From a virus, in the IMG/VR virus record IMGVR_UViG_3300036768_000756, positions 1-64,000 of that record: 64,000 nucleotides of DNA; one strand, written 5' to 3'. Each line of letters starts with the position of its first letter. Position 1 is the first letter of the stretch. Below, in pieces: positions 2,255-46,487 of this stretch. Position numbers and translations under genes: made by a program. The notes beneath the pieces were generated by a model. The model saw nothing but the letters and a program-made list of their open reading frames with translations, was not told where the DNA came from and did no database searches.

Positions 2255-2437
2255 ATGAGGATAACTTTCATCACGTTGACGTTCTGTCCCGTCTGCGGTA
2301 CTTGGCACGCGACGACCAGCGGCCACATCAGCTGGCGCGAGCACCAATTCTGGTGCTCTGCGCACCCGGAGCCAGTCAAGTGCACCGGAACGGCGTCGTT
2401 CCCGCGGATCGATTTCTCAGGAGGTGACGAATGCTAG
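2255..2437 (+). CDS. Small Cys-rich (zinc-ribbon-like) protein
   Basis: A 60-residue protein with CPVC near the N-terminus (residues 11-14), then single Cys and His residues (TWHA, REHQFWCSAH, VKC). The pattern suggests a small zinc-binding fold, but the spacing fits no family I can name. RBS GGGAGGTGTGAC overlaps the end of the upstream gene. It is strongly conserved in the right unit (36202-36384), including HQFWCS and KCTGT. Confidence 0.65.
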   Translation: MRITFITLTFCPVCGTWHATTSGHISWREHQFWCSAHPEPVKCTGTASFPRIDFSGGDEC

Positions 2438-3327
2438 TCGAGCGACTTATCTCACATGCAGAGTCAAGCCGTGCGGCACGGCCCGCCAAGCCGGCCGCGT
2501 GGAACATTGGTCGCTGCGTACGGATGCTGTGGGCGGGCGCCCACGGCATCCCGCCGAGCGACCCGCCAAGCGGGCGGCAGGTCATGTCATTTGACCTGGG
2601 GAGCCGCATCGAGGACGCAGTGATGGACTACCTGCAGCAGGCCGGGATCGGCCACATCCGGCCCCTCGGCCGTGAGGATGCGGTGCACGTGCCCTGGCTC
2701 GATGCGGACGTGCGACCGGATGCGCTCATCGAGCTCGATCGTGAGCTCACGTGGCCAGACGAACTGGGGCTCGTGACGGTTGCGGGCATCGACTACCAGC
2801 AGCCGCCCAAGCCAGGTGAGATCGTGGTGCTCGAGGTTAAGTCGATGTCTGACTACAGTTTTGATAGGGCCTGTCGAGGCGTAGTTGATGACGCATACCT
2901 AGCACAATGTCAGGTTTATATGCACGCCCTCGACTGCCGCTGGGCCTTGCTTGTCGCCTACCGCAAGGAAACCAGCCACCTAACGGAGGTCTGGATCCCG
3001 CGGAGCAAGCTCATCATCGACGGCTTGCGGGCCAAGGCGGAATGGGCCTTTGCTGACCGATGCCCCTCGCGGCCCTACGAGCTGGAATCCGCCTGCCCGG
3101 GCATTGCCGAGGGCCGCTGCATCAATGGCCGCACGCCAGGCCGCGGACAGCCGCACTCCGAGTGCGGCGGAACGGGGCTCATGCCTGGCGGACCATACAT
3201 CCCGGCATACCCGTGCGGCTACTGTGATTACCGCACCTGGTGCTGGGGCGACCTGGAGCCGGTCGTGGCGCGCATCGGGTCGCGATGGGTGCCGCGGTTC
3301 CGGCCGCGGAACGGAGGTGCATCATGA
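2431..3327 (+). CDS. Cas4/RecB-like PD-(D/E)XK nuclease with Fe-S cysteines
   Basis: A 298-residue nuclease. The active site reads D97 in RPDALIE, E135-x-K137 in VLEVKS, and a Gln-rich QCQVY at about 159-163, the order of the RecB/Cas4 PD-(D/E)XK superfamily. One Cys near the N-terminus (C29) and a C-terminal trio (C262, C265, C271 in PCGYCDYRTWC) match the four-cysteine iron-sulfur arrangement of Cas4 and AddB. It most likely processes DNA ends for phage recombination together with the protein at 1220-1972. ATG 2431 follows AGGAGGTGACGA and overlaps the upstream stop by 7 bases. No CRISPR array or other cas gene is nearby, so a CRISPR role is not indicated. Confidence 0.85.
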   Translation: MLVERLISHAESSRAARPAKPAAWNIGRCVRMLWAGAHGIPPSDPPSGRQVMSFDLGSRIEDAVMDYLQQAGIGHIRPLGREDAVHVPWLDADVRPDALIELDRELTWPDELGLVTVAGIDYQQPPKPGEIVVLEVKSMSDYSFDRACRGVVDDAYLAQCQVYMHALDCRWALLVAYRKETSHLTEVWIPRSKLIIDGLRAKAEWAFADRCPSRPYELESACPGIAEGRCINGRTPGRGQPHSECGGTGLMPGGPYIPAYPCGYCDYRTWCWGDLEPVVARIGSRWVPRFRPRNGGAS

Positions 3328-6290: not shown

Positions 6291-7226
6291 CTACTGCACC
6301 ACTACCGTCGGCATCGGCGCCACGCGGATCTGCCTGGGTGGTGGCAGCTCGACCCGACGCGGCCCGGGCACGATGATGATCGCGCGCGGTGTGCCCTCAG
6401 CCGGTGGCTTCGTGGGCGTGATCGTGCGCGTCGGTGTGTGTGTCGGCGGGTTCGTCGGCGTAAACGTCGGAGTGCGAGTCGGAGTCGCGGTGGGCGTATC
6501 TGTCGGAGTCCGAGTCGGTGTGTCAGTCGGTATGGGCGTCGGCGTATGAGTGGGCGTGAACGTGGGCGTGGCGGTCGGAGTCTCCGTCGGAGTATGTGCC
6601 GGCGTCTCGGTGACCGTCGGTGTATGGGTCACCGTCGGCGTGTGAGTGGGCGTGTGTGTCACCGTTGGAGTGTGTGTCGGCGTGTTTGTGACGGTCGGAG
6701 TCTGCGTCGGCGTGTGGGTCACCGTCGGAGTGTGGGTCACGGTGGGCGTGTGAGTTGGGGTGTTGGTGATGGTCGGCGTGTTGGTTCGAGTCGGCGTGTT
6801 GGTCGGCGTCGGAGTGCGAGTCGGCGTGTTCGTGATCGTGGGCGTCCTGGTTGGCGTGTTGGTGATGGTCGGCGTGTTCGTGACCGTCGGAGTGTGGGTT
6901 GGTGTCGGAGTGTGTGTCGGCGTGTCCGTCGGTGTATGGGTCACCGTCGGTGTCTCAGTAGGCGTCCTAGTCACCGTCGGCGTATGCGTTGCGGTGGCGG
7001 TATGCGTGGGTGTCGGAGTGCGAGTTGGGGTCTCCGTCGGCGTGCTGGTCGGACTCTCTGTCGGCGTTGACGTAGGCGTCGGCGTGGGCGTGCTCGTCGG
7101 TGTTGGCGTCGGCACGCTAAACCATAACGGGCGAGGATACGCGCCGACTGTACTCGGGCGCACGACGAATACATAAGTCGCTAGTGCGACAACGACACAG
7201 ATCAGTATCCCGACTGCCCGCTTCAA
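6291..7226 (-). CDS. Membrane-anchored Thr-Pro repeat (stalk-like) protein
   Basis: A 311-residue protein starting at TTG 7226, 7 bases after AGGAG. The right unit uses the same TTG, and the neighbouring ATG is out of frame. Residues 5-22 are a hydrophobic signal/anchor segment after a basic start (MKR). Residues from about 40 to 262 are tandem TPT-x units ([13 protein letters not shown]), a rigid extended and probably glycosylatable stalk. The conserved tail includes [11 protein letters not shown] and ends in PMPTVVVQ. It is last in the late operon, with a probable surface or host-facing role. Such TPT stalks are known in exported bacterial proteins, and the gene may derive from a host. Confidence 0.75.
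6408..7115. repeat. Degenerate tandem DNA repeats encoding TPT units (left)
   Basis: Imperfect 12-24 bp repeats built from GTCGGCGTGTGNGTC on the plus strand encode the Thr-Pro stalk of the 6291-7226 gene. Repeat number differs from the right unit (39950-40797), giving a protein 51 residues shorter. Long open frames on the other strands (VGVSVGV-type) are by-products. Confidence 0.85.
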
Positions 7227-7237
7227 TCATCTGCTCC

Positions 7238-7957
7238 TCAGTCAGTTGTTGCGATCCACCCCGCCATGCCGCGCTTGAGGCACAAGCGATAGACAATCGC
7301 CACCCATGTCGCAGATACCGACAGCGTGCCACTGAATGCACCGCTGCCGTCGTACGCATGCTGGAAGGTCGCGCGATGCGTCGCGGAGACAAAGTTGTTT
7401 ATGCCGCAGAGCTGCGTCCCAGTGCCTGTTAGCGTCGGCGCGGTGCTCGAATACGTCATTACGGACACGATCGTCGCCATACCATAACCAGCGGGACAGG
7501 CAGTGGTGGCCGCAGGTACGGAGACAGTCGTACCGCTACCGGTCGCTGTCTGCGTTTGAGCGAGCGCAATATCTTTCGTATGCGCTACGTGCGACACACA
7601 TATGTTCTTGACACGAACACTGCTTGAAAATGATCCTGTCCATGTTACCCCGGTTTGCGCTCCGGGCACGGTGAACGGTCGCCCAACTCCGTCAAGATTG
7701 GCACTGTTGTTGACCTCGATCGTACTGCTCAATGGACTGGCGCTGGCCCATGATGATGTGATGCTGTACCCGGTCGTATCGTCAGAGGAATGAGCGACAA
7801 CGACCGCCCCCATGCCAGGAACATCGCCGGTACAACTGACGCTCGTCGTAAAGGTAGTGCTCCCGGCATTGCAGACCTGCGAGTACGTATAGGCGAGAGC
7901 CTCGCTGACCACGAGTGACAGGCATGCCGCACTAATCAGAATGCGCCGACCGATCAT
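7238..7957 (-). CDS. Exported small virion or surface protein with signal peptide
   Basis: A 239-residue protein after GGAGGTGCGGT. Residues 1-22 are a classic Sec signal peptide: basic MIGRR, a hydrophobic core, and ALA before Tyr23. The mature part is Ser/Thr/Gly-rich and predicted beta (SYSITSSWASASPL-like), with spaced Cys residues and a conserved C-terminal beta region ending FSGTLSVSATWVAIVYRLC. It overlaps the upstream fibre gene by 26 bases. It resembles a beta-sandwich of phage head or tail decoration, but no family is recognised. The right partner at 40931-41653 is strongly similar. Confidence 0.7.
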   Translation of the reverse strand: MIGRRILISAACLSLVVSEALAYTYSQVCNAGSTTFTTSVSCTGDVPGMGAVVVAHSSDDTTGYSITSSWASASPLSSTIEVNNSANLDGVGRPFTVPGAQTGVTWTGSFSSSVRVKNICVSHVAHTKDIALAQTQTATGSGTTVSVPAATTACPAGYGMATIVSVMTYSSTAPTLTGTGTQLCGINNFVSATHRATFQHAYDGSGAFSGTLSVSATWVAIVYRLCLKRGMAGWIATTD

Positions 7958-10900
7958 ACCGCACCTCCACGCCGAGAATGCGCGGATCGTTGGTCCAGCT
8001 ACTGCTGGTGGTGTTCACGATCCCATGCAACGCCACGGTTGATGCACCGCTACATGTGCCCGCGCAGGTAATGTTGGTGAGCGTTGCCTGCGTTACAGTA
8101 TCTGCACTTGACGCCGTTTGTGACGTCGTGGCTGCCGTACCATAGGCAGCGGTAATTGCAGACCCCGAGGAGATACATTTACAGCTCCAATCGATCGCAA
8201 GCGTGTTGCTTGCGGAATCGCGGTGCAATGCAACGGGCGCTATTGCAAGCGCCGACCCCGACCATCCGCCTGGCATCGCGAAAACTGCCGAAAATTCAGA
8301 ACCGGACGCATCAGGGCAAGACAGATAGCTATACCCTGGAGTATTCCCGCTTGGTGCGACGACGTCCTGTGTGCACGCAGTGGCAGCGGTGAATGCCATC
8401 GGCGAAAGCAGGAGCGTGCGCTTGCTAGTGTCCACGTACGACTTGTTAACGATATGGTTTGCCGAGGTCGGTGCATTCGCAACTGAACATCTGTTGCTAT
8501 CTAACGCGCTGCATGTCAACATGCCGGTACCGTTAACGCCAAGGGATATGGCACCGCGATTGCCTTCATATCGTGTCCCAGCAAAAGCCGGTAGGTCTAC
8601 AATTGACGCGAACTTCGTTCCATCTGGCGCAAAGACTCCGACTGTTCCGCCATTGCTGCCTCCATCGCCAGTCTGCCCGATTGGGATTGAATAAGTCGTG
8701 CCACCCGAGCGGTAACGCGGGATGTATCGTGTACCGACTTTTGACATCCACAGTTCGCCATCAATTGGATTTGATTGCGCAGAGCTATCGGTAGTAGGCG
8801 GCACGGCTCCAGGTGTACCGCTACCAGTGTCTGTCCATGTATTTGAAGACCAGCCAGAAAGCGTCTGCAAAAGCCCGAATGTGCCCCCGGATGTCGGTGG
8901 TCGCCCGTAAACCTTCCATCCAGTGGCACCATGAACCTGGTTCACTATAATTGCCACAGCGCAATTAGAGCTGCAGCCACTGAGCGTTATACATGCAGCG
9001 TCGCCAGCGACAGTCTCCCCAAACTCGCTTACAGCGGTCGCACGATAGCAGTAAGTCCCATTGCCAAGCGTACCGCCTGTAGTTTGCGAGAGCGTCACGG
9101 TCGGTGAAGCAAGCGTGCTTGTCTGCGGTTGGTCACAGTCAAGTACACCAAGATAACCGCCAGCATTGCCACCAAAGCGCTGGCTAATGTCAGCGGTCTT
9201 GGCGATTGGATCAACATATCTAATCGTGCCTGTGCCCTCAATACGCCGGCGACACGCGTTATACGCAACATTACCAGAGTAGTTAAAATTAACCTTGTCG
9301 CCGATAATCAAATCATACAATGGCGGTCTATCCGGAATCGAACGCAACTTTGCAACAGTTATATCTCGTACTGACAGCTCGGGTAGATTCGCAGATATAA
9401 GAGCATTGTTTGTCTGACACGGACCACGAATAACTACAAAAGCGGCGTGTTTGTACGGCGACGGGGCCGAGGATGCATTAATCAAGCTGCGCATGATGCC
9501 GGTGTTAAAGCCAGTCGCGCAACGATTAAACACAAACTCGACTTGCCCTTCATAATCTCCTGTTACTTTCGAGCCACCCTGAATAAATGCAAGATCGACT
9601 ATAAAGTCAGCAGACCCCCCAGATACGCGTGGAGATAGAACAGATTTGATCGCACCGCTTGACCCAAAGCGTCTATTCGCAATGCACGATGACCCAGGAC
9701 AATCGGCATCAGACAAACACGCAAGTTGCGTATTGTTAGCACATACCGCCGGGTGGTCCCCCTCGAGATGAATAGAATGAAACGATGCATTCCAGCCGAG
9801 GCCGTATGTCCAAATATCGTCAAAACCTACTGTCACATTGCCTGGGCCAGAAATAATGCCGTCGTATCCATTACCCCAATGAACCAGCCCAGCGTGCGTT
9901 GCGCCTGCGGCAACTACATCCCCAGCAAACCATAACGCATGCCCGTCGCCCATATTCGTTATTTGCAAACGCCGGAACGCAAGAGTGGCCCTGTTGGAAA
10001 CGTACACCGTTGCAATGCTTGATCCAGAACGGATGATCGCTGATTGTCTGTCCGGTCCGATATACGTAATTGAGCCAGGGGATGGTATCGATTTTACCGT
10101 GGTATCAATACACGGACCATTCGCTCCACAGTCCGCATCGGTGTGACATTGGACATTCTGATTCCCCTGGCACGCAAAGCCGATCCATTCATCGTACTGG
10201 CCTGCAGCTAAGTTAACCGCATAGTACTTGGTTGCGAACAAATTACATGACCCACCGCCGCACCAACTCCTGGGGCCATTGATACATGACGCCGCCGCAC
10301 ACGGCGACAATGGGTGAGTACGAGAGCACGTTTCATTCGATGGGCAATCATTGTCCACTGAGCACCCGATATCGCTTACCGAGCAATATTTCATGCACGG
10401 CGTGTCCGTGCCGCTGCACACAAGTGTTGAGCAGACGCCCCCGCCGGTGCAATCGCGATGCTCGTTGCACGTTGCCCCCGCGTTCGTGCCGCCCGCGCAG
10501 CGCATGCAATTCTTGGCATTGTCGTTCGAGCATGTGTAAGCCCCATTGTCATTATTCGCGAGAATCCGCGCATGCACACCTTGCGGCCCCGTGATCGTTT
10601 TGCAGGGCTTATTGATTGGGCCGCACTCCGGACCGTCGGTGCCAGCTGGGTCAACATACAGGGCGAACGCACTTGCAATATCAGCCTGCGGAACCGGCGC
10701 ATTGACGACCTGGCCGCCCACTACACGCAGCACCTGGCCGGTTGGGCTATCTGACAGTGCTCCGTTATTTGTGCCGCCCCAGGTAAGCGGCCACACTGTT
10801 TGTGGTAATGACATCGTGCCGCTGGACGGGTCATAAGATAGCGGCGGAGAAGCCTGAATCGATCTGCGCGCTTCGCTGTCCGAGTAGGCATCATCTACAC

Positions 10901-10970
10901 GCGGTTGCGCATAGACCACAGGCGCGCATACCAGACCGACAAGCCCAATTGAGATTACTGCATGTCGCAT
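7932..10970 (-). CDS. Cys-rich beta-helix tail fibre/adhesin with signal peptide
   Basis: A 1,012-residue protein. ATG 10970 is chosen for the AGGAGA site and because residues 1-21 then form a signal peptide (basic, hydrophobic, VYA before Gln22). Residues 120-470 contain YVDPAGTDGPECGP...CKTI, typical of right-handed beta-helix spikes, interrupted by Cys-rich motifs of the CxxDADC type (HRDCTGGGVC, DNDCPSNETC, CLSDADCPGSSC). A fibronectin-like segment (GNGTYCYRATAVSEFGET) follows, then a fibre-type HIVNKSYVDT and a C-terminal beta domain. It is probably the receptor-binding or polysaccharide-degrading protein. Both the signal peptide and the many cysteines suggest folding outside the cytoplasm, which is odd for a tail fibre. 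Confidence 0.75.
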   Translation of the reverse strand: MRHAVISIGLVGLVCAPVVYAQPRVDDAYSDSEARRSIQASPPLSYDPSSGTMSLPQTVWPLTWGGTNNGALSDSPTGQVLRVVGGQVVNAPVPQADIASAFALYVDPAGTDGPECGPINKPCKTITGPQGVHARILANNDNGAYTCSNDNAKNCMRCAGGTNAGATCNEHRDCTGGGVCSTLVCSGTDTPCMKYCSVSDIGCSVDNDCPSNETCSRTHPLSPCAAASCINGPRSWCGGGSCNLFATKYYAVNLAAGQYDEWIGFACQGNQNVQCHTDADCGANGPCIDTTVKSIPSPGSITYIGPDRQSAIIRSGSSIATVYVSNRATLAFRRLQITNMGDGHALWFAGDVVAAGATHAGLVHWGNGYDGIISGPGNVTVGFDDIWTYGLGWNASFHSIHLEGDHPAVCANNTQLACLSDADCPGSSCIANRRFGSSGAIKSVLSPRVSGGSADFIVDLAFIQGGSKVTGDYEGQVEFVFNRCATGFNTGIMRSLINASSAPSPYKHAAFVVIRGPCQTNNALISANLPELSVRDITVAKLRSIPDRPPLYDLIIGDKVNFNYSGNVAYNACRRRIEGTGTIRYVDPIAKTADISQRFGGNAGGYLGVLDCDQPQTSTLASPTVTLSQTTGGTLGNGTYCYRATAVSEFGETVAGDAACITLSGCSSNCAVAIIVNQVHGATGWKVYGRPPTSGGTFGLLQTLSGWSSNTWTDTGSGTPGAVPPTTDSSAQSNPIDGELWMSKVGTRYIPRYRSGGTTYSIPIGQTGDGGSNGGTVGVFAPDGTKFASIVDLPAFAGTRYEGNRGAISLGVNGTGMLTCSALDSNRCSVANAPTSANHIVNKSYVDTSKRTLLLSPMAFTAATACTQDVVAPSGNTPGYSYLSCPDASGSEFSAVFAMPGGWSGSALAIAPVALHRDSASNTLAIDWSCKCISSGSAITAAYGTAATTSQTASSADTVTQATLTNITCAGTCSGASTVALHGIVNTTSSSWTNDPRILGVEVRYDRSAHSD

Positions 10971-11446
10971 CGTACGTAGTCTCCTGCGTTCTGCCTGGTT
11001 ACGTACAAGTCTGAACAATCGCCTGTTGCCGGCGCCGGATAGCGCACGCAATCCCCATCAGACAGGTAGATGCCAGGACCGCCCCACGGTTGCGGTCCAA
11101 CGGACACCAAGATTCGTCCCGTATTCGGCGTGGGTCCCCTAGCGCAGCAATAGCACCATGCAGCGGGGATTGGCGTGGGAGTACCAGCTCCGACCGTCGG
11201 CGTCGGCGGGATCGCTGGCGTAGGTGTGCCCGGCGTGCCGCCTACGAATGGGCCTTGGTGGATGCGGTTCCAGCGCGGGGAGTCAACGATCTTATCAGCG
11301 CACCGTTGCTCTCCGTCATAGCTGTAACAATGAGCGTCGATCACTGCCGTTGGCGTCGCAGCCGTCTGGATGCCTAGGCCGCGATCGACCTGCGCAGACG
11401 CCGCAGTAGCAAACAACCAGATACACGCAGACAACAGATACATCAT
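10955..11446 (-). CDS. Small exported Cys-rich protein
   Basis: A 163-residue protein starting at ATG 11446 after GAGAGGAGA. Residues 1-18 are a signal peptide with ASA before Gln19. The mature chain has Cys pairs (HCYSYDGEQRC, WCYCCARG, a C-terminal CDMQ) and a short Pro/Thr linker (GGTPGTPTPAIPPTPT). It overlaps the fibre gene by 16 bases, so it is probably made with it. It may be a fibre partner or a periplasmic folding/anchoring factor. No family recognised. Confidence 0.7.
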   Translation of the reverse strand: MMYLLSACIWLFATAASAQVDRGLGIQTAATPTAVIDAHCYSYDGEQRCADKIVDSPRWNRIHQGPFVGGTPGTPTPAIPPTPTVGAGTPTPIPAAWCYCCARGPTPNTGRILVSVGPQPWGGPGIYLSDGDCVRYPAPATGDCSDLYVTRQNAGDYVRCDMQ

Positions 11447-11462: not shown

Positions 11463-12791
11463 TCATGGTAGACCATCACAGCCGCACGTCACGTACGCGC
11501 GGCGGATGTACTCACAAGAATCCGCTGGACAGCGCGCGAGAGCCGGTGTCGGCGAGGCGTCGGGTGTCGCGGTATGCGTCCAGGTCGCCGTAGCCCGCGC
11601 GGTCGCGGTGGCCGTGTGCCGCGCCGTGGCCGTGGGCGTGGGTTCCGATGCAACTGCTGCACTCCAGGCCTGCTGCCCCAGTACATCGAGCACCCATGCG
11701 CGTGTCGCTGACATGGCTACCCGTCGCACCTGCGAGCCGCCAGGATACCCGCGCACGACATCGCGCACCACGAGCTGCTGATCGAGTACATAGAGGTCAC
11801 TACCGGACAGCAGCGCCACCCGCCCCGCACGCGAATCGACCACAGGCCCCTGGAGAGCCCGCCCTCGGATCGGGGCGCCGACCGCTGGCGCATCGCCGCT
11901 CCACGCAGTCAGCCGCTCGGCACCCGCCGGGCCATAGGTCCAAAGCGCGCCGCGCCCGTAGCAGACGGTGTCAGCGAGCAAATAGCCGCCGTCATAGACC
12001 GCGATGCTGGATGCGAGCGGGAGCCGTGTGGTGGACGTGTCACACGTGTGCATGCCGTCGCCCGCGATGCGGGCGGCTGCACCCGTGTCCCCGACGGAAT
12101 AGATCGAGGCATAGTCGAGCACAACGCGATCCAGCAGCGCCTGCGGCTGATTGAGGCCCGTGACTCGGACGTCGGGATCGATGCCGTCCAGGTCGCGGAG
12201 CACCGTCATCGCCCCGCACCGGGCAAGCACGCGCCGCCTGCCCGCGTGCATCGAGAGCCAGCCTGAGCAACCGACGCCTTGCTGCTCCGACATGATCCGC
12301 GTCACGAGCGTCGTAGTCCGACCCGACACGCGCCACACGGCGAGCGAGCCGCGCTGGTCCGCGTCGAGCCCATACGTCGAGAGCGCGTAGAGCGCGCCGT
12401 CCGCGTCGACCGCGATGCCTGTCACTCGGCCAGAGACCGCGGCACCATCCACGCCACCGATGTCCTGGTGCCACTGTGCGGGCGCAGTGCAAGCCAGGAG
12501 CAGCATCAGTACTGGCAGGAGCGTCTCAATCGGTTTCCGCGCACCTCGTGGCCAATAATGCAGCGCCGCGCGCCATGGAGCGCCCAGATACCGCGCGAGC
12601 TCTGCGGCACGCGTCGCCCGCCGCTGTGCCCGGCCACTACGCACCTCAACCAGTAGCGCATCGCCAGGCCGGATGGCCACGATGTCCGCCGGCCCTTTGC
12701 TCGCCGCCGCGCGAAAACAGATGTAGCCGCACGCTCGTAGATACTCGATGCTGCGTCGCTCGTAGTACACGCCTCGCCGATAGTTGGTCAT
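11463..12791 (-). CDS. Resolvase-like domain fused to membrane segment and exported repeat domain
   Basis: A 442-residue protein. Residues 1-85 resemble Hjc-type PD-(D/E)XK enzymes: E11, SKGPADIVAI with D36, and E49-V-R51, where the usual Lys is Arg. Residues 86-101 are a basic stretch plus hydrophobic segment ending LLLAC, a lipobox-like signal. Residues 108-360 hold repeated beta units (ALYALSTYGLDADQRGSL, DLYVLDQQLVVRDVVRGYPGG), propeller-like. A TATATA-type Thr/Ala/Pro linker and a Cys-rich tail (CPADSCEY, CGCDG) close the chain. Both copies keep the fusion in one frame, so it is not a frameshift. The topology would put the nuclease-like part inside the cell and the rest outside. Function unclear. 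Confidence 0.65.
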   Translation of the reverse strand: MTNYRRGVYYERRSIEYLRACGYICFRAAASKGPADIVAIRPGDALLVEVRSGRAQRRATRAAELARYLGAPWRAALHYWPRGARKPIETLLPVLMLLLACTAPAQWHQDIGGVDGAAVSGRVTGIAVDADGALYALSTYGLDADQRGSLAVWRVSGRTTTLVTRIMSEQQGVGCSGWLSMHAGRRRVLARCGAMTVLRDLDGIDPDVRVTGLNQPQALLDRVVLDYASIYSVGDTGAAARIAGDGMHTCDTSTTRLPLASSIAVYDGGYLLADTVCYGRGALWTYGPAGAERLTAWSGDAPAVGAPIRGRALQGPVVDSRAGRVALLSGSDLYVLDQQLVVRDVVRGYPGGSQVRRVAMSATRAWVLDVLGQQAWSAAVASEPTPTATARHTATATARATATWTHTATPDASPTPALARCPADSCEYIRRAYVTCGCDGLP

Positions 12792-13480
12792 CGGTCACCT
12801 CCCTGGAGCGTCCAATCACCCCACATGGTCCAGTAGTCCAATCGCCGCTGGCGCACGTAGACACCGTCGCCCTCGCGGCTGCCTGATACATCCGTGTTTC
12901 CCTCGACGGTTTCCCCGGCTCGCAGCACGATCGCCATGTGCCCGCCGGTGCGGCCGACTCGCAATGCGAGGCATCCGCGATACATGCGAGTGACGCGCTG
13001 TCCGCGCGCATCGATCTCGATGGCGTGGTCGAGCACGCGCGCCGAGCGAATCCAGGTCCGTTGGCACCCAGTCCACCGCCGCACCGTCTCCAGGCACCAC
13101 ACGACAAATGCCGCGCACCAGGGATGCTCGCCCGTCGGGTCAAGCCCGGTCGCGCTGATATACTCGTCGATCTCGGGCCCGCGATTGGGCGCGTCCTCTC
13201 GCACTCCGAGCTGCGAGAGGCCAACGAGGCAGAGGAGCCCCCTAAGTGCCGACGTCGTGGCTCCGAGTGGCCGATGCAACGTGAGCTCCGTGATGCGCCC
13301 GATGGTCGGCATCTCGCCGCCGCCGAGCGCGCGCAGCGCGGCCTCTGTACGTGGCCCGAAGATCCCGTCGACAGGCCCCGGATCCGCGTCCTGCCGGACG
13401 GCGAGCTCCTGCAGCCAGCGCACTTCGGCGCCGCTGTGACCCCCGGAGAGTCTGAGCTGTCGCTGCTGTGCCGCGACCAT
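12788..13480 (-). CDS. Endolysin: peptidoglycan-binding plus CHAP domain
   Basis: A 230-residue lysis enzyme. Residues 17-52 form a PG_binding_1 domain (EVRWLQELAV, DGIFGPRTEAALR). Residues 90-225 form a CHAP amidase/endopeptidase, with catalytic Cys122 in PWCAAFV, His181 in GGHMAIVL and a polar residue in VEGNT (193-196). It cleaves cell-wall peptide bonds at the end of infection. It follows a membrane protein by one base and overlaps the next gene by 4, so lysis and host-facing genes are coupled. No signal peptide is visible, so export needs a holin. Confidence 0.9.
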   Translation of the reverse strand: MVAAQQRQLRLSGGHSGAEVRWLQELAVRQDADPGPVDGIFGPRTEAALRALGGGEMPTIGRITELTLHRPLGATTSALRGLLCLVGLSQLGVREDAPNRGPEIDEYISATGLDPTGEHPWCAAFVVWCLETVRRWTGCQRTWIRSARVLDHAIEIDARGQRVTRMYRGCLALRVGRTGGHMAIVLRAGETVEGNTDVSGSREGDGVYVRQRRLDYWTMWGDWTLQGGDR

Positions 13481-13481
13481 G

Positions 13482-13754
13482 TCACACCCTATGCCACGAG
13501 AGCGCCAAGAATGCCACCTGTGAGATCACCCCGATGGCCGCCGCCAGGGCCGCCCAGGCCACCCGCGTGGCGAATGCACGCATCGCAGCGCGATCCTCCG
13601 CAATCTCTCGCGCGAGCGCATCAACTGCAGCCCGCAAGTGCTCGATCTCGGTCTCCAGGGACGCGAGCCGCTCCAGGAGCCCACGGGTCGTACCGTCGCC
13701 ATACACAATTCGGTGGATATCCTCGTCGTCGCGTCTCATCTCGGTGCACTCCAT
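13482..13754 (-). CDS. XhlA/holin-like coiled-coil membrane protein
   Basis: A 90-residue protein. ATG 13754 overlaps the stop of the tail-tip gene (TAATG). Residues 20-60 are a coiled coil (RLASLETEIEHLRAAVDALA) and residues 66-86 one membrane segment. This is the plan of XhlA-type hemolysin/holin proteins, and the gene lies directly before the endolysin. Probable role: membrane anchoring or permeabilising for lysis. A spanin-like role is less likely, as there is no second partner. Confidence 0.65.
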   Translation of the reverse strand: MECTEMRRDDEDIHRIVYGDGTTRGLLERLASLETEIEHLRAAVDALAREIAEDRAAMRAFATRVAWAALAAAIGVISQVAFLALSWHRV

Positions 13755-16700
13755 TATCGACTCCATGGCGGTACCCCGACAGCGCGGGAGTCCACGCGGT
13801 ATAGCGCTGGGGCATCGATGCTCACGGATTGCCCGGTCTGGATCCTGAGCCACACTTGCACGTACGCCACGGCCTGCGCCGTTACCCGAGCGGTTGCATA
13901 ATACCTCAGCCACCCGAGCCCGTTGCGCTCTGCTGTGGGTCGTAGTGCCACCTGCAGGTCGGTGCCGATGATGTTGCCCGCCGAATCCATCTGCCGCACT
14001 ACAACACTCGTGCGCTGTGTCGTGGATAGCCAGGCAGCCCACAGGAACGTCCAGCCCGGGCGGGCGACATGCAGTCGCGCCGCAGCGTCGGTATCACCGA
14101 GTGTTGGTGTATCGAAGAACGACGCTGTGGTGGTCGCGCTGAGCGTGACATATCGGTCGCCGACACAATTCTGGTCGACGGTGACGGTCGCCGTGGCACC
14201 GTTGTACCACCAGCCGGCGGGGAAGCCGCCCGATCGGAGCTGCGAAAAATCCGAATTGCGAAACCGGTTGCTCGTAGCTCTCGGTGCATCCGCGATCGCT
14301 GGCGCGAGATCGAGCACGCCCGGCTGCAATGTCGCCTGCGGTGTGCCGGTCTGCACATAGGCCATGTTGGCGCGCCACGGAGCAAGCTCAACCTCGGTCT
14401 CGTCGCCGATCTGGAGCCCGCGCACGATCCAGTCGCCGCTATGGCGGCCCGTGGAGTCCGCCACACGCACGACGTCGTGCGGGCGGACATGCCAGAGCTC
14501 TGGTCCCCAGCCGCTTCGGATCGCAAGGCGATCTCTATCCGCAAGCTCGTGCGCGGCGATCCGGTACGCCATCGTGTCCACTGTCTGGCGATCCATGAGC
14601 AGCGGCGCAGTCACGACGAGCTCGGGCCCGGTGTCGCTAAGCTGCAGCGCTAGGTCTCCCGGATACTCGTCGAGCTGATCCAGCACGGGCTCGTCGCTCG
14701 TGCCGCGTGCCCTGATGAGCGGCCCGAATCGCACGCGGAGACGTGCGGGGGCGGGCCCAATCTCCGGGCGTCCGCTCGCCTCGTCGTAGCCGCCCGCGTC
14801 CGGGCCGAGTAGGAGCGTGTGCTTCCGCGTCCGCTCGGCCTCCCATGTCGCATGCCGGTCTCCGAGATCACGGATGGCCGCGCAGGTCGTCTTGGCGAGC
14901 TCCTCCAGCACGAACTGCGCGCTCTGGCGTTGCAAGGACGCACCGAGCGCGCCGTCGATGCGCCGCGACGGCCGCGCTGCGAGTATGCTCGCCGCCTGGT
15001 CCGAGCTCTGAAGCCCGAGCCCCATCGTCGAGTGTGCGAGCACGTCATGGATTGCCTGCGCATAGCTCGCGCGTGCGCGTTGCACGCGAGCCATGACGGC
15101 ACCACGAGCCTGCCCGGGTAGGCGGACAATAGTAAGCCCCGTGCGGTAGTCCGCACCGTCGAGCACGACAGCATCGCCCGACACCTCGCAACCAGGCCCC
15201 ACCTCCAGCACGGTCACGCCGCCGTAGGTGGAGCCCGCCGTGTAGCCGCGCCCAGGAGTGACTAGCGCGACCTCGGTGGCGTACCCGCCGGACGCCCGCA
15301 GGATCACCACGCGCGCGCCACCGGAGCCGATGGAGACGATGTCGCCAGGCGAGCCGGCAATCGTGTTGGCTGCCGGTGTGGCGAGGATTGTCTTGACGAC
15401 GCCGCTCGCAGTCGTGCCGCTGAACGCGATGCCGGACACGGTGACCTGCGTGTCGGAGCCCGATAGCTGCACGGCCGTCACTTGGCCGTACCGCCACATC
15501 GTGTCGGTCGACGACATCCAGCGGAGCGTCGTGCCGGGCACCACGAGCCCGCGCTGGTCTCCGGAGACAACGATGGTGTCACTCGCCGTGATACTCACTA
15601 CGGTCAGGCTTGCCCACGACGACGCGCGCTCCAAGCCGGCCTGCTGCGGAGCAATGTCCCACCACACATCTCGCACTGCGAGAACGTCCGGCGTGCTCGA
15701 ACCCGCCGGCCGCGCATCCGCCAGGGCAAAGTCGGTCCCGCCGTCCAGTGTCCGGGATTCACCGATGTGCGACAGCGCGTAGATCGCGTCGCCGTACGGC
15801 ATCGGGATCGCCGCGCCCGGCTGGCTCGATAGCGGATACCGCCACGGCCACACGGCATCGGCTGGGATCGGATCCTGCGCGCGGTACGTGAGCCAGTCGG
15901 ACAGCGTCACCGCCGTCCCGTCGCGACCGTCTGCGACGGATGTGATGACCATGCGCGGCACGCGCGCAAGCGCGCCGCCCGAATCGAGCACGTAGACATC
16001 GACCGTCCGCCCGATGAGCGCGCGGCCTGCGCCCGAGTATTTCCCCAGCGATGCTCGTGATAGCTCCCGCATATCAATGTCCGATAGCTCGCGCGGGATG
16101 ATGGCGACGTCCGCCACGGAGCCGTTGAAGTTATTCAGATTACTGGCCGCAGCCATGATATACGCCGGCAGCGAACCAGCGCCGAGCGTGAACGACCGCG
16201 TGACATCCATTTGCAGAACGCCATCACGCCACGAGCGCCACCGGCCCGTGGTCGAGTCGTACGTATACGCAATCATGGTCCACGTATCGGACGGGATTGC
16301 GATTTGCGAGTTGGGGCGCGGATCGCTGCCCGTATAACTCGCGGCAAAGAATTCCACCTGGCCGCTAACGTAGCCGTAGATGATTGCCCAGGATCCGGCC
16401 TGGAGCAGATATTTTTGGGTCTGCGAACCGACTGGCCGCACCCACATGAGTACGGTCCATGCCCCCGTGAGCGACGGGGCGGGACCGCCGGTCACCTGCA
16501 CGTAGCTCCCGCTCGCGCCACTTCCGCGCCATGCTTCCCGCGCACGCTCGGAAAGATGGGGCCATGTGTCGTCGTGCGAGATCGACGACGCCGAGCACAC
16601 ATAATTGCGCGTTACGTCGCTATCGCCGGACGTCTCATGGCCACGCCACCACATCGTGGGCCGATAGCTGGCGATAAGCTCGCCCACCGTGCGCCGGTCC

Positions 16701-17548
16701 GTCGGATCGAGCACCACGGTCGCCGGAGTCGCCTGCTCGATGCCGTAGTAGCCGCGTGAGAGCTCGGCGCCGATGCCCGTGATGCGCTGAATCCGCGTGC
16801 GCGGCACGTTAGCCCCTAGGGCCAGCAGCCGGTCGTCTGGCTCGTCTGTGGTCCAGGCCTGCTCGCTGGTGTCTCCCCTCGCGACGTGGCACACGTAGAC
16901 TATGCGGCTCTCCCGTGTGGCGCGCGGTGAGCGGCCCACGCGCGGGTGCAGATAGAGTGCGGGTATGGCCGTGCTGGTGTATGTCCCCATGCTGCCCACG
17001 ATGTCGCGCTCCACGCCACCACCGCCGCGGAGTGGCATATACGACGTGGGCCCATAGTCGAGTGCCGTGCGGCCCTGAGAGAGCTCGATGCAATCCGCAT
17101 CGGAGAGAGCCCGCTGCCACAAAGCGACCTCGGCGACCACGCCGTCCAGCGTCTCCGTCCCGTTTGCGTGCCGCCCGATCCACATCGCGCCCGTCTGCGT
17201 GCCCATGGCGCCGACAGTCGCCTCCACGTATCGCACACCGTCATAGAATCCCGTCGCCGTGCTGCCCTGGCGTCGCATCACGACCCATCCGCCATACGCC
17301 CGATGGTATGGTTCTGCCAACTGCACGAGATAGACGTCATAGCTAGGCACGACGAGCCGGAAGCCAGTTGGGTCCACGCGCACCTGCCACGAGACGGTCG
17401 TGGCACTGCCTGCGTAGAGCACGGTCTGTGCCGCTGACCCGGTCGAGTCCCACCGGCACCAAAATGCGATGGTCCACTCGCTGAGCCCCGCCAGAGGATG
17501 CTGGCCACTGCTGACCAGGTAGCGGATGCTGCTGCAGATGACCGCCAT
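13754..17548 (-). CDS. Large tail-tip protein with two LamG domains
   Basis: A 1,264-residue protein. Residues 1-175 form a concanavalin/LamG fold (EWTIAFWCRWDSTG, ALWQRALSDADCIEL). Residues 350-500 form a second LamG (AWTVLMWVRPVGSQ, SVADVAIIPRELSDIDM). The middle 500-1050 has hub-like beta segments, and the last 200 residues resemble a carbohydrate-binding module (SGGFPAGWWYNGATATVTV). Position directly after tape measure and distal tail protein matches the central tip/fibre gene of siphoviruses. It probably binds host surface glycans. Its first 170 residues are identical in the right unit, and the rest differs at scattered sites. Confidence 0.75.
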   Translation of the reverse strand: MAVICSSIRYLVSSGQHPLAGLSEWTIAFWCRWDSTGSAAQTVLYAGSATTVSWQVRVDPTGFRLVVPSYDVYLVQLAEPYHRAYGGWVVMRRQGSTATGFYDGVRYVEATVGAMGTQTGAMWIGRHANGTETLDGVVAEVALWQRALSDADCIELSQGRTALDYGPTSYMPLRGGGGVERDIVGSMGTYTSTAIPALYLHPRVGRSPRATRESRIVYVCHVARGDTSEQAWTTDEPDDRLLALGANVPRTRIQRITGIGAELSRGYYGIEQATPATVVLDPTDRRTVGELIASYRPTMWWRGHETSGDSDVTRNYVCSASSISHDDTWPHLSERAREAWRGSGASGSYVQVTGGPAPSLTGAWTVLMWVRPVGSQTQKYLLQAGSWAIIYGYVSGQVEFFAASYTGSDPRPNSQIAIPSDTWTMIAYTYDSTTGRWRSWRDGVLQMDVTRSFTLGAGSLPAYIMAAASNLNNFNGSVADVAIIPRELSDIDMRELSRASLGKYSGAGRALIGRTVDVYVLDSGGALARVPRMVITSVADGRDGTAVTLSDWLTYRAQDPIPADAVWPWRYPLSSQPGAAIPMPYGDAIYALSHIGESRTLDGGTDFALADARPAGSSTPDVLAVRDVWWDIAPQQAGLERASSWASLTVVSITASDTIVVSGDQRGLVVPGTTLRWMSSTDTMWRYGQVTAVQLSGSDTQVTVSGIAFSGTTASGVVKTILATPAANTIAGSPGDIVSIGSGGARVVILRASGGYATEVALVTPGRGYTAGSTYGGVTVLEVGPGCEVSGDAVVLDGADYRTGLTIVRLPGQARGAVMARVQRARASYAQAIHDVLAHSTMGLGLQSSDQAASILAARPSRRIDGALGASLQRQSAQFVLEELAKTTCAAIRDLGDRHATWEAERTRKHTLLLGPDAGGYDEASGRPEIGPAPARLRVRFGPLIRARGTSDEPVLDQLDEYPGDLALQLSDTGPELVVTAPLLMDRQTVDTMAYRIAAHELADRDRLAIRSGWGPELWHVRPHDVVRVADSTGRHSGDWIVRGLQIGDETEVELAPWRANMAYVQTGTPQATLQPGVLDLAPAIADAPRATSNRFRNSDFSQLRSGGFPAGWWYNGATATVTVDQNCVGDRYVTLSATTTASFFDTPTLGDTDAAARLHVARPGWTFLWAAWLSTTQRTSVVVRQMDSAGNIIGTDLQVALRPTAERNGLGWLRYYATARVTAQAVAYVQVWLRIQTGQSVSIDAPALYRVDSRAVGVPPWSR

Positions 17549-18450
17549 CTCTAGCGCACCTCCCGCAGTACGACGCGCCCGACCTCGATGAGCGTGGACG
17601 CGCGGTGCTGGATGCGGACCGGCTCCACGAGCCGGCAGACGTACGGCGTCGTGACTGGTACCACGAGCACTGGGTTCGGCCGCGCCTGCCCCAGTGCCTG
17701 CCAGATCGAAAGCTGCGACGCGGGGAGCGCACCGCCGCCCATCTCCAGAATGACCGCCTGCCGCGACGTGAGACGAGGCCTAAGCCCGTCGATCGTGCGC
17801 GCCGAGTCAATCGTGTAGCTGAGCGTGGGTGAGCCGTACGCCGCCTCTAGGCGTGTGCGCGCGAAGCCCATGGCACCGATGTACAGCATCCCAGAGCCAT
17901 CGTCCGTCGTACTCGTCATTCCCCGGATCCGCCAGTAGCGACGCTGCACGCCGCCGCTGCCATAATCGACAAAGAGTTTCCGCCGTCCGGAGTACGCATC
18001 CACAGCCGCTGTATACGTGGTCGCGGTCCACGTTGTGGCGTCGGTCGAGTAGGCCACCTCGATCGACGAGAGATTCGGGGCATCGATCCACACGCCAAAC
18101 ACCGTCAGGTTGCTGCCCAGGTCGATCTGGATGCCTGCCCCATTCGCGCTCGTGGCTCGCCATCCGACATATGGACGATCGAGATCAAGCACGTCCCGAA
18201 TGTCATAGCCGCCCGCAGTAGTGCCAACAGCAATGAGCGCGATCGGCGCATGCCAGTCGGTGATGACGATCATGCCGTGGCCCTCCCCGTGCGGTGCCCT
18301 GGCCGTCGCACAGGCAGCTGCGCCCGCAGGGCGGCGGTATTCTCCCTGAGCGCGGCGGTATTCTCGGCCTGCGCGCGGATCTGCTCCTCGAAGCGCTGCT
18401 GCTCGATCGCGGCCTGCTCACGGAGCACACGCTCGGATTCGCGGAGCCCT
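17033..18450. repeat. Near-identical block shared by both units (left copy)
   Basis: 1,418 bp matching 50729-52146 with one difference, at 18330 (g here, c at 52026). It covers the N-terminus of the tip protein, the whole distal-tail gene and the C-terminus of the tape measure. The flanks resume normal divergence at once (17032 and 18451 are mismatches). Lines were compared by eye. Confidence 0.9.
17551..18273 (-). CDS. Distal-tail-like protein with discoidin-type domain
   Basis: A 240-residue protein. Residues 30-140 resemble an F5/8 type C (discoidin) jelly roll (GWRATSANGAGIQIDLGSN, VAYSTDATTWTAT, RRYWRIRGM). The C-terminal 90 residues are beta-rich. Position between tape measure and tip protein matches the distal tail protein of siphoviruses. 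Start ATG 18273 overlaps the tape-measure stop by 4 bases. The whole gene is identical to 51247-51969, unlike almost every other pair in the window. Confidence 0.7.
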   Translation of the reverse strand: MIVITDWHAPIALIAVGTTAGGYDIRDVLDLDRPYVGWRATSANGAGIQIDLGSNLTVFGVWIDAPNLSSIEVAYSTDATTWTATTYTAAVDAYSGRRKLFVDYGSGGVQRRYWRIRGMTSTTDDGSGMLYIGAMGFARTRLEAAYGSPTLSYTIDSARTIDGLRPRLTSRQAVILEMGGGALPASQLSIWQALGQARPNPVLVVPVTTPYVCRLVEPVRIQHRASTLIEVGRVVLREVR

Positions 18451-21400
18451 ACCAGCGCCTGCTGCTCCAAGACGCGCCGCTGCATGCTGCCCGCCGCAAA
18501 CTGCGAGGCGAGCTGCAAGAGCTCCGTGCTACGCTGCTCCACGATGCGCGCGCGGTCGATGGCCGCCACACCGGAGGCCTGACGGAGTGCTGCGAGCGCC
18601 TGCTGCTGCTCCTGTAGGAGCGTCGCCCGCTGGGCTGCCGGGCTCATGCGTGCAAGCTCGATCTGCCGAATGCGCTCCCGCTGGCGGTCGGCCTCAGCCA
18701 ATAATGCCTGGGCGCGTGCTGGGCCTTGAAGCGCATCGAGTACGGCCCGGAGTTGCGGCGGGATCAACCGCAAGCCGCGCGCAAAATCGAACAGTGCTTG
18801 TGTCGCGGAGCGCACTGCCTGCGCGTCGCCTGCTTGAATCGCGGCGAACACGTCGCCCACGACGCGCCGCATCTGGTCGGTAATGCCAGCGAGCGAGACG
18901 TCCGCGATGGCATCTGTGAGCACCTGCCCGATCCGCTCCGCAAATGCCGTCTGCGCGTCGCGGAGCTGGTCATCTGGGACAATGGCGAGTGCTCGGATGG
19001 CGCCAGCAAGCCCTCCCGCTGCCCGGGCGCCGGCCTGGGATATCTGTTCGAGCTGCTGAATGAACCGCCGGAAATCGAGGCTCTGGCTCCCCGCATCGAG
19101 CTGTCGCATCGCGATGCGCGCGACATCGAGCCCTGGCGGCAGCTCGTCGCCAAACAACCGCGCAATCTCCGCGATCGCGAGTTCTAGCTGCGAGGCGGAC
19201 AATTGGCCGCGTTCGAACTGGTCATGCAGCGCAAGGAGCGCCCCGCGGAAATCGATACCAGCCGCCTGCGCAGCACGAAGCAGCCACTCCTCTGCTTCGC
19301 GCGCACCACGCCCGAGGGCGAGGGTCATGTTGGCAATCGTGTTGCCCAATGCCTCGACATCCGGGAGACCCAGCATGCGGCCAAATACGAGCCCAGGCGC
19401 CTGTACTGCCGCCTGAACTGCGCGGATGTCCTCTTGCGTGCGCCGTCTAATGGCGGCGACGAATCCAGTATCCCCGGGATATTGCGCAAGCAGCCGAAAT
19501 GCCTCGCGACCCGCAGTCGTGTCCGCCAATCGCGGCCCCTCGATAATGCGGCCGGACTCGTCTCGGAATACGATCCGACCGGGAAGCCCGGCCTTGCCGA
19601 ACAGCTTCTCCAGCGCCCGCAGCGCGCGATCCTCAGCTGTCGGCAGCGACACGCCAAACAGAGACGTTATGCCACCAATTAGCGCTCCGATTGCCGCGCC
19701 AATCGCAGTCCCAATGCCGGGTATGATGCTACCTATGGCCGCGCCCGCTGCAGCTCCGGCAGCGACGCTGAGGGCGGTCCGACCCGCATCGAACTGCCCA
19801 AAGCGCGTTGTGCCGGGTCCCGTCGCCATCATGATCGGACCCGCGATCAGAGCAGCGAGGCCTGCGCCACCCGCTGCCGCTCCAAGCGTGGAGAGCGAGA
19901 TCCCGAGGGTGGAGGCGAGACTGCTTGCGCCCGTGATCGTGGCGAGGGTGCCGCCCGTGATGGCCCCGAGCCCGAGTGTACCGGCAAGCGCTGCGAGCAC
20001 CGGTGCAGCAGACGCCGCGCCGGACACCATGCCTGCCAGAGCCTGGGCGATCCCACCCTGCACGAGAGCGCCGGTGATCCCAGCGCCGAGCCGTGTGAGC
20101 ACGCCCGCGCCCTGGGCCTTGAGTGTGCGCGACTGCTCGGCGAGCGCGCTGCCGACAATGTCGGACACCGACACTAGCAGGCTATCTCGGAGCACGAGGC
20201 CAATGTCTCCCACACCGCCGCCTGCGATGCGCGCCGTAACCGCGCGAGAGAACGAACCACCGATGATCTCGACCACGTCCACCGCTGCTGCGCGCGATCG
20301 ATCTAGGCCTTCTAGCGTCCGGTCCACGCGCTCGCGGAGAATGTCCATCGTGGCGTCGATTTGCTCGATGCGTGCGGCCCATGCTTCAACCATGCGCGGA
20401 TCGAAGACCGTCGGCATCACCTGGGCGAGCTGGATCGCCGTCTCTAGCCGCTCTCGCTCTGCCTGTAGCAACGACTCCTCGACGCGGAGCTGCTGCTCCA
20501 TTGCTTCGCGCACCGCGGCCATTGCCGCGCGCTGCTCCTCAGGGCCCATTGTTTGCGCGCGTTCGAGAAGCGCCCGGGCGCGCTCGACGTCCGCCGCCGC
20601 GATCTCACGTGCGGTCTCAGCTCGGATCCGGTCGGCCTGCGAGATGACGTCAGTGACCTGCTCCCACTGGATTCGCAAGTCCTCTGCGGCCTTCGCCGCA
20701 TCGGTCGATCGCACGCGGATGCCCGCAAGCGCGTCCGCAAACCGGCTCGTGTCCTGCGCCGCCTCTGCTGCTACTGCGCCGGCGCGCTGGAAGCTGGCCG
20801 CAACCGTCTCCGGCACTGGTGACATGGGCGCGACGGGCGTGAATGGCGGTGGCTCTATCGGGCGCGGCGCTTGCTGCATGCTGCCGGGCAGGAACAATGC
20901 CAACGGCGCGCTGATGCCGAGACCGCTGAGCCCGCCCACGAGCGCGCCAGCTGGGCCGCCGATCAGGCCGCCAAGCACTGCGCCGGACAACGCGCCCGTC
21001 CCAACTGCCGCCAGCGCGCCAAATGCCGGGCTCGACACGACCGACGCGATCCGTTCGACAGCGACCATGACCCTGGCGAGCCCGGTCGCCAGGTTCTCTG
21101 CGGCCACAACCGCACGTTCGAGGCCGGCCACAATGCTCTGCGGATCCTGCGCGATCTGTGCAGCTACGCCGCGCACCGCGTCCGCCACCCGCCCGAGCGT
21201 GCGCGCAAGCACCTCGTCGATACGGCCACGCTCGCCCGTCACCGCCCGCGAGATAGCGTCCGCCAAGCCGAAGAACGCATCGCGGATCTGTGCGAGCGCG
21301 CCCGTGACCGTTGTGGATCGTGTTACGATGGCACCGATCTGCTCCAGTGCTTCGGCGATGGCGCCGCGCACTTGTGCCATCCGGCCTCCGAACGTGGAGG

Positions 21401-22829: not shown

Positions 22830-23008
22830 CACGGCGTATCGATGCGCACCCAGACGGGCGAGATGCCCTCGTCCGAGGTGCACCGGATGCAGTCGTACGC
22901 ATCACCATGCACGACCTCGGTGACCCGATAATAGAGCTCGCCATCCGGGTCATACTCCACCCCGCCGCCGGGCAGGCTGCGGAACCGTACAATGTCACCG
23001 ACCTGCAT
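22829..23008 (-). CDS. Small conserved protein of the tail operon
   Basis: A 59-residue protein after GAGGTGAGCC, easily missed because of its size. It begins MQVGDIVRFRSLPGGG and reads as a small beta barrel (ELYYRVTEVVHGDAYDCIRC, then GISPVWVRIDTP). Its stop overlaps the G chaperone start. The right partner is 56555-56731 with the same plan. Function unknown; the DIVRFRS...YRVTEV pattern resembles small SH3-like proteins. Confidence 0.75.
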   Translation of the reverse strand: MQVGDIVRFRSLPGGGVEYDPDGELYYRVTEVVHGDAYDCIRCTSDEGISPVWVRIDTP

Positions 23009-23011
23009 GGC

Positions 23012-23251: not shown

Positions 23252-23264
23252 GGGGCACCTCCTA

Positions 23265-24533: not shown

Positions 24534-24535
24534 GA

Positions 24536-26026: not shown

Positions 26027-26040
26027 GTCGTGCCCCGATA

Positions 26041-27886: not shown

Positions 27887-27906
27887 GATAGATATCCTCG
27901 CGGCGC

Positions 27907-28705: not shown

Positions 28706-28706
28706 G

Positions 28707-29057: not shown

Positions 29058-29060
29058 GGC

Positions 29061-32535: not shown

Positions 32536-32541
32536 AATGCG

Positions 32542-45158: not shown

Positions 45159-46487
45159 TCATGGTAGACCATCGCAGCCGCACGTCACGTACGCACGGCG
45201 GATGTACTCGCATGCATCTGTCGGACAGCGCACGATAGCCGGCGTCGGTGAAGCTTTGGGCGTCGCCGTATACGTCCACGTCGCCGTGGCTCGTGCGGTC
45301 GCGGTGGCTGTGTGCCGTGCCGTGGCCGTCGGCGTGGGCTCCGGCGCGATTGCCGCACTCCACGCGGCCTGTCCCAGCACATCGAGCACCCAGGCGCGCG
45401 TGGCCGACATGGCTACTCGCCGCACCTGCGAGCCGCCAGGATACCCGCGCACGACATCGCGCACCACGAGCTGCTGGTCGAGCACGTAGAGATCGGATCC
45501 CGAGAGCAGCGCGATGCGCCCGGCGCGCGAGTCCAGTGCTGGGCCCTGCAGCGCCCGCCCACGGATCGAGGCGCCGACCGCTGGCGCGTCGCCACTCCAC
45601 CCCGTGAGCCGCTCGGCACCCGCAGCGCCGTAGGTCCACAGCGCGCCGCGCCCATAGCACACAGTGTCCGCCAGGAGATAGCCGCCATCGTATATCGCGA
45701 TGCTGCTCGCAAGCGGAAGCCGTGTGGTGGACGTATCGCACGTGTGCGTGCCGTCGCCAGCAATGCGAGCGGTTGCGCCCATGTCGGAGACCGAGTAGAT
45801 CGTGGCATAGTCAAGCACGATCCGGTCGAGTAGCGCCTGCGGTTGATTCAGGCCGCGCACCTGGACGTCGGGATCGATGCCGTCCAGGTCGCGGAGCACC
45901 GTCATTGTTCCGCACCGTGCGAGCACTCGCCGCCTGCCTGCGTGCATCGAGAGCCAGCCGGAGCATCCGACGCCCTGCTGGTCCGAGACAATCCGCGTCA
46001 CAAGCGTCGTGGTGCGGCCCGGCACGCGCCACACGGCGAGCGAGCCGCGCTGGTTCGCGTCGAGCCCATACGTCGACAGCGCATACAGCGCGCCTTCGGC
46101 ATCGACCGCAATGCCCGTCACACGGCCCGAGACCGCAGCACCATCCACGCCGCCGATGTCCTGGCGCCATTGAGCGCCGGCGGCACAAGCCAGGACCAGC
46201 ATCAGCACCGGTAGGAGCGTCTCGATCGGTTTTCGCGCGCCGCGTGGCCAGTAATGCAGCATCGCACGCCACGGAGCGCCTAGATACCGCGCGAGCTCTG
46301 CCGCGCGCGTGGCCCGCCGTTGTGCCCGGCCGCTACGCACCTCGACGAGCAGCGCATCGCCAGGCCGGATCGCCACGATGTCCGCAGGCCCCTTCGAGCC
46401 TGCCGCGCGGAAGCACGTGTATCCGCACGCTCGCAAGTGCTCGATGCTCCGCCGCTCGTAATACACTCCGCGCCGATAATTAGTCAT
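45159..46487 (-). CDS. Resolvase-like / exported domain fusion (right)
   Basis: A 442-residue partner of 11463-12791. The single-frame fusion, EVR in place of EVK, and the LVLAC lipobox-like segment are all conserved, which argues against a pseudogene or assembly fusion. ATG 46487 after AAGGAGGTGAGAA. Confidence 0.65.
   Translation of the reverse strand: MTNYRRGVYYERRSIEHLRACGYTCFRAAGSKGPADIVAIRPGDALLVEVRSGRAQRRATRAAELARYLGAPWRAMLHYWPRGARKPIETLLPVLMLVLACAAGAQWRQDIGGVDGAAVSGRVTGIAVDAEGALYALSTYGLDANQRGSLAVWRVPGRTTTLVTRIVSDQQGVGCSGWLSMHAGRRRVLARCGTMTVLRDLDGIDPDVQVRGLNQPQALLDRIVLDYATIYSVSDMGATARIAGDGTHTCDTSTTRLPLASSIAIYDGGYLLADTVCYGRGALWTYGAAGAERLTGWSGDAPAVGASIRGRALQGPALDSRAGRIALLSGSDLYVLDQQLVVRDVVRGYPGGSQVRRVAMSATRAWVLDVLGQAAWSAAIAPEPTPTATARHTATATARATATWTYTATPKASPTPAIVRCPTDACEYIRRAYVTCGCDGLP

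Follow-up and report, generated by a model that had tools for sequence, protein, structure and literature searches.

A single open reading frame of 442 codons in this phage DNA joins an N-terminal Hjc-like nuclease domain to an internal signal-like segment and a predicted exported part. At the level of sequence the fusion is real, as are its conservation and the purifying selection that acts on each side of the junction. We propose, with moderate confidence, that one chain is made, that its C-terminal part is exported and that the chain is cut by signal peptidase.

A conserved in-frame fusion

The window analysed is a stretch of 64,000 nucleotides from a virus record of 68,186 bp, and portal, HK97-type capsid and tape-measure matches in the record leave its phage nature clear. 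The initial annotation had placed a fusion at positions 11463-12791 without naming a strand; a single 442-aa frame does lie there, on the minus strand, the plus strand being interrupted by stops. The frame, its second variant and the parts discussed below are as follows.

12791..11463, minus strand: fusion ORF, 442 aa, ATG start, TGA stop
46487..45159, minus strand: second variant of the fusion ORF (unit 2), 442 aa
12796..12804, minus strand: Shine-Dalgarno (SD) site AGGGAGGTG of the fusion ORF, 4 nt from the ATG, by anti-SD pairing
12528..12791, minus strand: Hjc-like PD-(D/E)XK nuclease domain, residues 1-88, by Pfam Hjc, the profile boundary of relatives and predicted fold
12477..12527, minus strand: internal Sec signal-like segment, residues 89-105, with the hydrophobic maximum and the invariant A103, A105 and adjoining Q106
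11643..12476, minus strand: predicted exported domain, residues 106-383, probably beta-rich, with low-confidence strands
11541..11642, minus strand: Thr/Pro/Ala-rich stalk, residues 384-417, from sequence
11466..11540, minus strand: C-terminal segment with 4 Cys, residues 418-442, conserved in all four variants

Each of the four variants, which come from three metagenomic records, keeps the fusion at 442 aa without a stop: the copies in unit 1 and unit 2 of the source record, 91% identical to each other at the protein level, and contigs L003 (91%) and L004 (89%) from two other metagenomes. The presence of the fusion in both units, pointed out at the outset, is borne out; the two units are strain-level variants within one record and are therefore weak as independent support, for which L003 and L004 serve better. 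A sequencing or assembly error behind the fusion is ruled out by its occurrence in 4/4 variants in three records. Among the variants, dN/dS was 0.04-0.09 over residues 1-88 (0.02-0.08 over residues 70-88), 0.10-0.37 over residues 89-106, 0.08-0.10 over residues 107-380 and 0.05-0.12 over the stalk and tail, with a high synonymous divergence (dS 0.44-1.04) in three long segments of the ORF. This combination of low dN/dS and high dS implies that a single frame is read, and maintained, across the join.

The N-terminal domain resembles Hjc

Residues 10-57 matched Pfam Hjc (PF01870) at 23.2 and 23.1 bits in the two copies against a cut-off of 21.1, and the L003 domain reached 30.2 bits against the same cut-off. 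The NCBIfam Hjc equivalog NF040854, with a cut-off of 70, was missed at 16.3 and 20.2 bits, for which reason we name the domain Hjc-like and not Hjc or a bona fide orthologue. A PDB profile search with the nuclease part returned five archaeal Hjc structures (E 0.0025-0.008) beneath an antibody chain that we took as a chance match (E=5.3e-4). The model built from seven sequences (mean pLDDT 64) has helices at residues 3-20 and 55-69 and strands at 24-27, 37-41, 44-49 and 74-79, so that the predicted order, H-E-E-E-H-E, is that of the PD-(D/E)XK core (alpha-beta-beta-beta-alpha-beta) up to residue 79. Foldseek placed Hjc/Hje first for this model, with Hjc 4tkk as best match (E=4.8e-4), and against BFVD the best rows include phage and archaeal-virus resolvases and VRR-NUC proteins. 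VIA-align Z scores to 1ob8, 1ob9 and 1gef were 8.6, 8.5 and 8.1, barely more than what the tool rates as 'commonplace'. Profile, model and fold matches agree with the earlier assignment of an Hjc-type nuclease with E11, D36 and E49 to the first ~88 residues, and the structure prediction proposed with that assignment gave an Hjc-like fold. We assign an Hjc-like nuclease fold to residues 1-88 with medium confidence on the strength of this modelling.

The likeness to archaeal Hjc/Hje (PF01870; 1gef, 1hh1, 1ob8) lies in the predicted core fold and in the active-site E, D and E at matching places; an excerpt of the 1gef literature gives E9, D33, E46 and K48 as active-site residues (PMC1913061). E11, D36 and E49 are unchanged in all four fusion variants. 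The replacement of the lysine by arginine (EVR) was correctly reported for both units but does not hold as a signature, since position 51 is Arg in three of the four variants and Lys in L003 (EVK). Unlike the archaeal enzymes, the present domain, a predicted nuclease, mostly carries Arg in place of this Lys, lacks the C-terminal part of the domain and is joined to a signal segment and another domain.

The join and the stand-alone relatives

When a full-length profile was run over eight records, it matched the whole protein in two, the nuclease part only in four distant phage records and nothing in two short contigs. The nuclease-only matches all begin at residue 1 and end at residues 88, 89, 89 and 65, and a profile of the C-terminal part matched only the two fused records of these eight and none of the four nuclease-only ones. 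The stand-alone protein of L017 runs on as RKPIEYRRLVG, whereas the fusion runs on as RKPIETLLPVLML. Because the stand-alone matches stop at this point and the two sequences diverge there, the join is at about residue 88-90; the C-terminal end of the nuclease domain that the stand-alone relatives possess is missing from the fusion.

These relatives (PHROG 6591; L016, L017, L018 and MT835531) are 35-46% identical to the fusion over the nuclease domain and share its N-terminal motif, but they are encoded by separate genes with open frames of 119-184 aa, in records without the C-terminal part, and have Q, Q, N and N at position 49 with Lys at position 51 in 4/4. We note that Q or N at position 49 goes with Lys51 in L016, L017, L018 and L006, and that the fused group shows the reverse tendency, with E49 kept and Lys51 mostly replaced by Arg.

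A probable single start at Met1

Anti-SD pairing ahead of Met1 amounts to -12.3, -12.6, -7.3 and -12.6 kcal/mol in unit 1, unit 2, L003 and L004, against a 5% quantile of -6.6 for random positions. The conserved internal Met96 lacks an SD in three of the four variants, and that of unit 2 is weak (-3.0). The ATT/ATC codon 88 is likewise without a conserved SD (-7.2 at 11 nt in unit 1, -1.7 in unit 2, -1.5 in L003 and -5.0 in L004). Codon 94 is ATG in L003 and L004 and GTA in unit 1. Synonymous variation is not reduced at the junction, with pS at 0.49-0.55 over codons 79-96. Given the strong SD at Met1, the lack of a conserved internal SD and the lack of synonymous constraint at the junction, internal initiation appears unlikely. 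The initial annotation had named an internal translation start as the finding that would divide the frame into two proteins; no good one was found, and the in-frame fusion stands.

An internal signal-like segment

Residues 91-101 form the most hydrophobic stretch of the fusion protein in 4/4 variants. The stretch is short, at about 11-13 residues, and its peak is only mildly unusual, as shuffles of the four proteins reached it in 102, 83, 266 and 509 of 2000 cases. The hydrophobicity is thus modest by comparison with shuffles, although a basic n-region (R82, R85, K86), a hydrophobic core and an A-x-A motif are visible in all four variants, and the argument for a signal therefore rests on the position of the segment and on the conserved A-x-A/Q (the slash marking the putative cut). 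A103, A105 and Q106 are invariant in 4/4 while residues 101, 102 and 104 vary; fixed site residues amid varying neighbours are the pattern expected from selection on a signal peptidase I site. We infer such a site at A103-x-A105/Q106. The membrane/lipobox segment of the initial annotation is upheld as to its hydrophobic stretch and not as to its lipobox, whose Cys101 is present in three variants and replaced by Gly in L004; a lipoprotein is ruled out on this ground, and the A-x-A/Q pattern also contradicts it.

The outer part, stalk and C-terminal segment

The outer part gave no Pfam match, and a PDB profile search returned three rows at E 0.5-0.9 that are not meaningful. The NCBIfam match to ScyD/ScyE is weak (E=0.016, 14.7 bits) and falls well short of the cut-off of 80. 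The repeat domain described earlier could not be recovered: self-alignment of residues 107-384 was no better than that of shuffles, 135 of 200 of which scored as high, and six 'blades' picked by eye for a repeat or beta-propeller reading failed a shuffle test. The Thr/Pro stretch, in contrast to the repeats, was confirmed, at about residues 384-417. The full-length model (mean pLDDT 36.8) was unusable. Comparison of the C-terminal part with phages and plasmids gave no match, and the genome-contig scan with this part yielded one 'relative' among 39 stretches, L030 (Rhodomicrobium; 31% over residues 160-301), which overlaps an ORF that reads as a membrane permease and was set aside as chance.

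The gene neighbourhood

The genes on either side of the fusion are the following.

12788..13480, minus strand: endolysin-like gene (PG_binding_1 plus CHAP-like), upstream, overlapping the fusion start, by Pfam and PHROG
10955..11446, minus strand: downstream gene with its own SD and an N-terminal signal-like segment (MMYLL...ATAASA/Q)

The upstream gene matched Pfam PG_binding_1 at 23.3 bits against a cut-off of 23 and a PHROG endolysin at E=2e-10. The SD of the downstream gene pairs at -9.1 kcal/mol in the three variants where the gene was found (unit 1, unit 2 and L003). Downstream of the fusion lie four genes (174, 1039, 240 and 311 aa; 6291-11446, minus strand), starting at about 11446, 10970, 7957 and 7226, that begin with signal-peptide-like hydrophobic segments; among their products are a spike-like protein of 1039 aa and one with TPT repeats. 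Such a run of apparently exported proteins beside a tailed-phage lysis gene is odd. Read by eye, the signal-like segments of the adjacent genes end in similar A/Q sites. Going by this neighbourhood, we guess that the outer part of the fusion might serve at the surface, or be secreted, late in infection. Just before the endolysin gene, a 94-aa protein (13485-13766, minus strand) has a coiled-coil-like stretch, a C-terminal hydrophobic segment and weak, uninformative matches; from its sequence it is possibly a holin.

Fate of the fusion protein

The reading we favour, export of the C-terminal part followed by cleavage, would begin with a phage Hjc-like resolvase gene, stand-alone elsewhere, that lost its usual C-terminal end and became fused, in frame, with an exported protein's signal segment. 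A single start would then yield a single chain. Its Hjc-like domain would fold in the cytoplasm and may act late in infection to debranch phage DNA, a role suggested by the adjoining endolysin gene; a late debranching nuclease would fit both this place after the endolysin and the Cas4/RecE-like exonuclease encoded at 2431-3324 in the same phage. The internal signal, with Arg and Lys ahead of it, would thread the rest through the Sec channel N-in/C-out, and host signal peptidase I would most likely cut between A105 and Q106. The products of the cut would be a membrane-stub nuclease, ~105 residues long, and an outer protein, now free, with its Thr/Pro stalk. Tail proteins, and tailed-phage neighbours with spike-like sequence, are normally assembled in the cytoplasm, which sits badly with export. 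By analogy with some animal-virus polyproteins, we suggest tentatively, and as something short of probable, that the host signal peptidase might allow one frame to supply two proteins, a DNA-branch nuclease in the cytoplasm and an exported one. If true, a tailed phage would here be using a simple polyprotein strategy, with a resolvase forced to a membrane location late in infection.

The same in-frame fusion under selection, with R82, R85 and K86 preceding the hydrophobic stretch, could instead yield an uncut membrane protein in which a signal anchor permanently tethers the nuclease to the outer domain and both act together, and there are PD-(D/E)XK proteins whose N-terminal segment is hydrophobic. 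This was the view of the initial annotation, which saw a nuclease tethered to the membrane and carrying a sensor or adhesin part on the outside. We now rate it as rather unlikely, since the A-x-A/Q that stays invariant amid varying neighbours favours release, the run of hydrophobic residues is short, the lipobox varies between variants and no relatives of the outer part were identified beyond this lineage. It is improbable, in our estimate, that nothing is exported at all, the hydrophobic stretch being a terminal helix and the C-terminal part a cytoplasmic or virion tail-appendage protein that carries the nuclease. The place of the gene between endolysin and spike-like genes, the modest hydrophobicity relative to shuffles and the usual cytoplasmic building of tail proteins would suit such a protein; conservation of A-x-A/Q, neighbours with N-terminal signal-like segments of their own and the Cys-containing C terminus argue against it.

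Internal initiation would produce a nuclease-containing chain and a separate exported protein, and the signal segment does start right at the domain boundary, with codon 94 an ATG in both L003 and L004. The GTA at that codon in unit 1, the absence of a conserved SD at Met96 or codon 88, the absence of synonymous constraint and the strong SD that the next gene has of its own all speak against two proteins, and a start at Met96 would leave only ~10 signal residues; we accord this arrangement little weight. A relic fusion, in which the nuclease is catalytically dead and retained solely to lead the exported protein, would account for Arg in place of Lys51 in three variants and for the missing C-terminal end, but is very improbable in view of the invariant E11, D36 and E49, the dN/dS of 0.04-0.09 over residues 1-88 and the Lys retained in L003.

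Precedents and searches for other fusions

Scans of viral contigs with the nuclease alone, with the C-terminal part alone and with P0004 each returned the same two known contigs, as did a DNA pattern for K-G-P-A-D-[IV]-V-A. A tail-protein scan found the L004 contig alone; a terminase scan found three contigs, two of which (15,982 and 16,281 bp) contain nothing that matches the fusion protein. The genome-contig scan with the nuclease alignment gave 60 stretches that fit the pattern, none of them confirmed. In a bacterial survey, 34 of 398 genomes from the phylum of L030 matched the nuclease profile at E<=0.001. The fusion was absent from the 20 matches examined, 16 of which read as small stand-alone proteins (most of them YraN-like) and four as Mrr-like with an N-terminal hydrophobic segment; among the 14 outside the examined set, three have long frames (562, 664 and 1251 aa).

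YraN/UPF0102 belongs to the same superfamily and matches the nuclease domain of the fusion weakly, but stands alone without a signal or outer domain. The four Mrr-like PD-(D/E)XK proteins (L031, L035, L038 and L049) combine a nuclease-type domain with a likely membrane segment, differing in that the hydrophobic segment comes before the nuclease and no outer domain follows. The fused cytochrome b/c1 of Bradyrhizobium is a precedent. A Streptomyces Rieske protein, as described in PMC13186574, has an internal signal peptide, which exports only the C-terminal domain; that protein differs in being Tat-dependent, polytopic, cellular and without a nuclease. We found no report of a fusion like the present one in our searches of the open-access literature. 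The remark that the arrangement has no obvious precedent was too strong for membrane tethering, given the four of 20 bacterial matches; the order nuclease, signal, exported domain was not seen elsewhere in our searches. Proteins of this fold that associate with membranes are known in kind; what is new here is the architecture, and the fusion is unusual while its parts are mostly of known kinds. It marks a phage lineage with a run of apparent export-signal genes beside a lysis gene, which is unusual and testable.

Structure of the source record

Units 351-32459 and 34334-66171 match piecewise at about 79-88% DNA identity, the 41 bp at either end of the record (1-41 and 68146-68186) match each other at 97.6%, and an identical 1297-bp block occurs in both units (17033-18329 and 50729-52025). 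In another metagenome, two separate contigs match 18203-34048 (unit 1, 99.99%) and 51899-68179 (unit 2, 100%); both begin inside the identical block, and the unit 1 contig leaves the record at 34048. From these matches the record is probably two strain variants of a ~34-kb circular or circularly permuted phage, joined by assembly. In appearance it is a circular dimer of variants that are about 86% identical, as an assembly join or recent recombination would give. Repeat arrays, mostly with 22-23 bp spacing, occur at 105-203 and 34036-34218 and at 15855-15973 of L053. They lie within a gene whose 430-aa product weakly matches O-like replication initiators (PHROG 391, E=0.0034), and the repeat sequence differs among the three variants, as it does in origin iterons changing along with their initiator.
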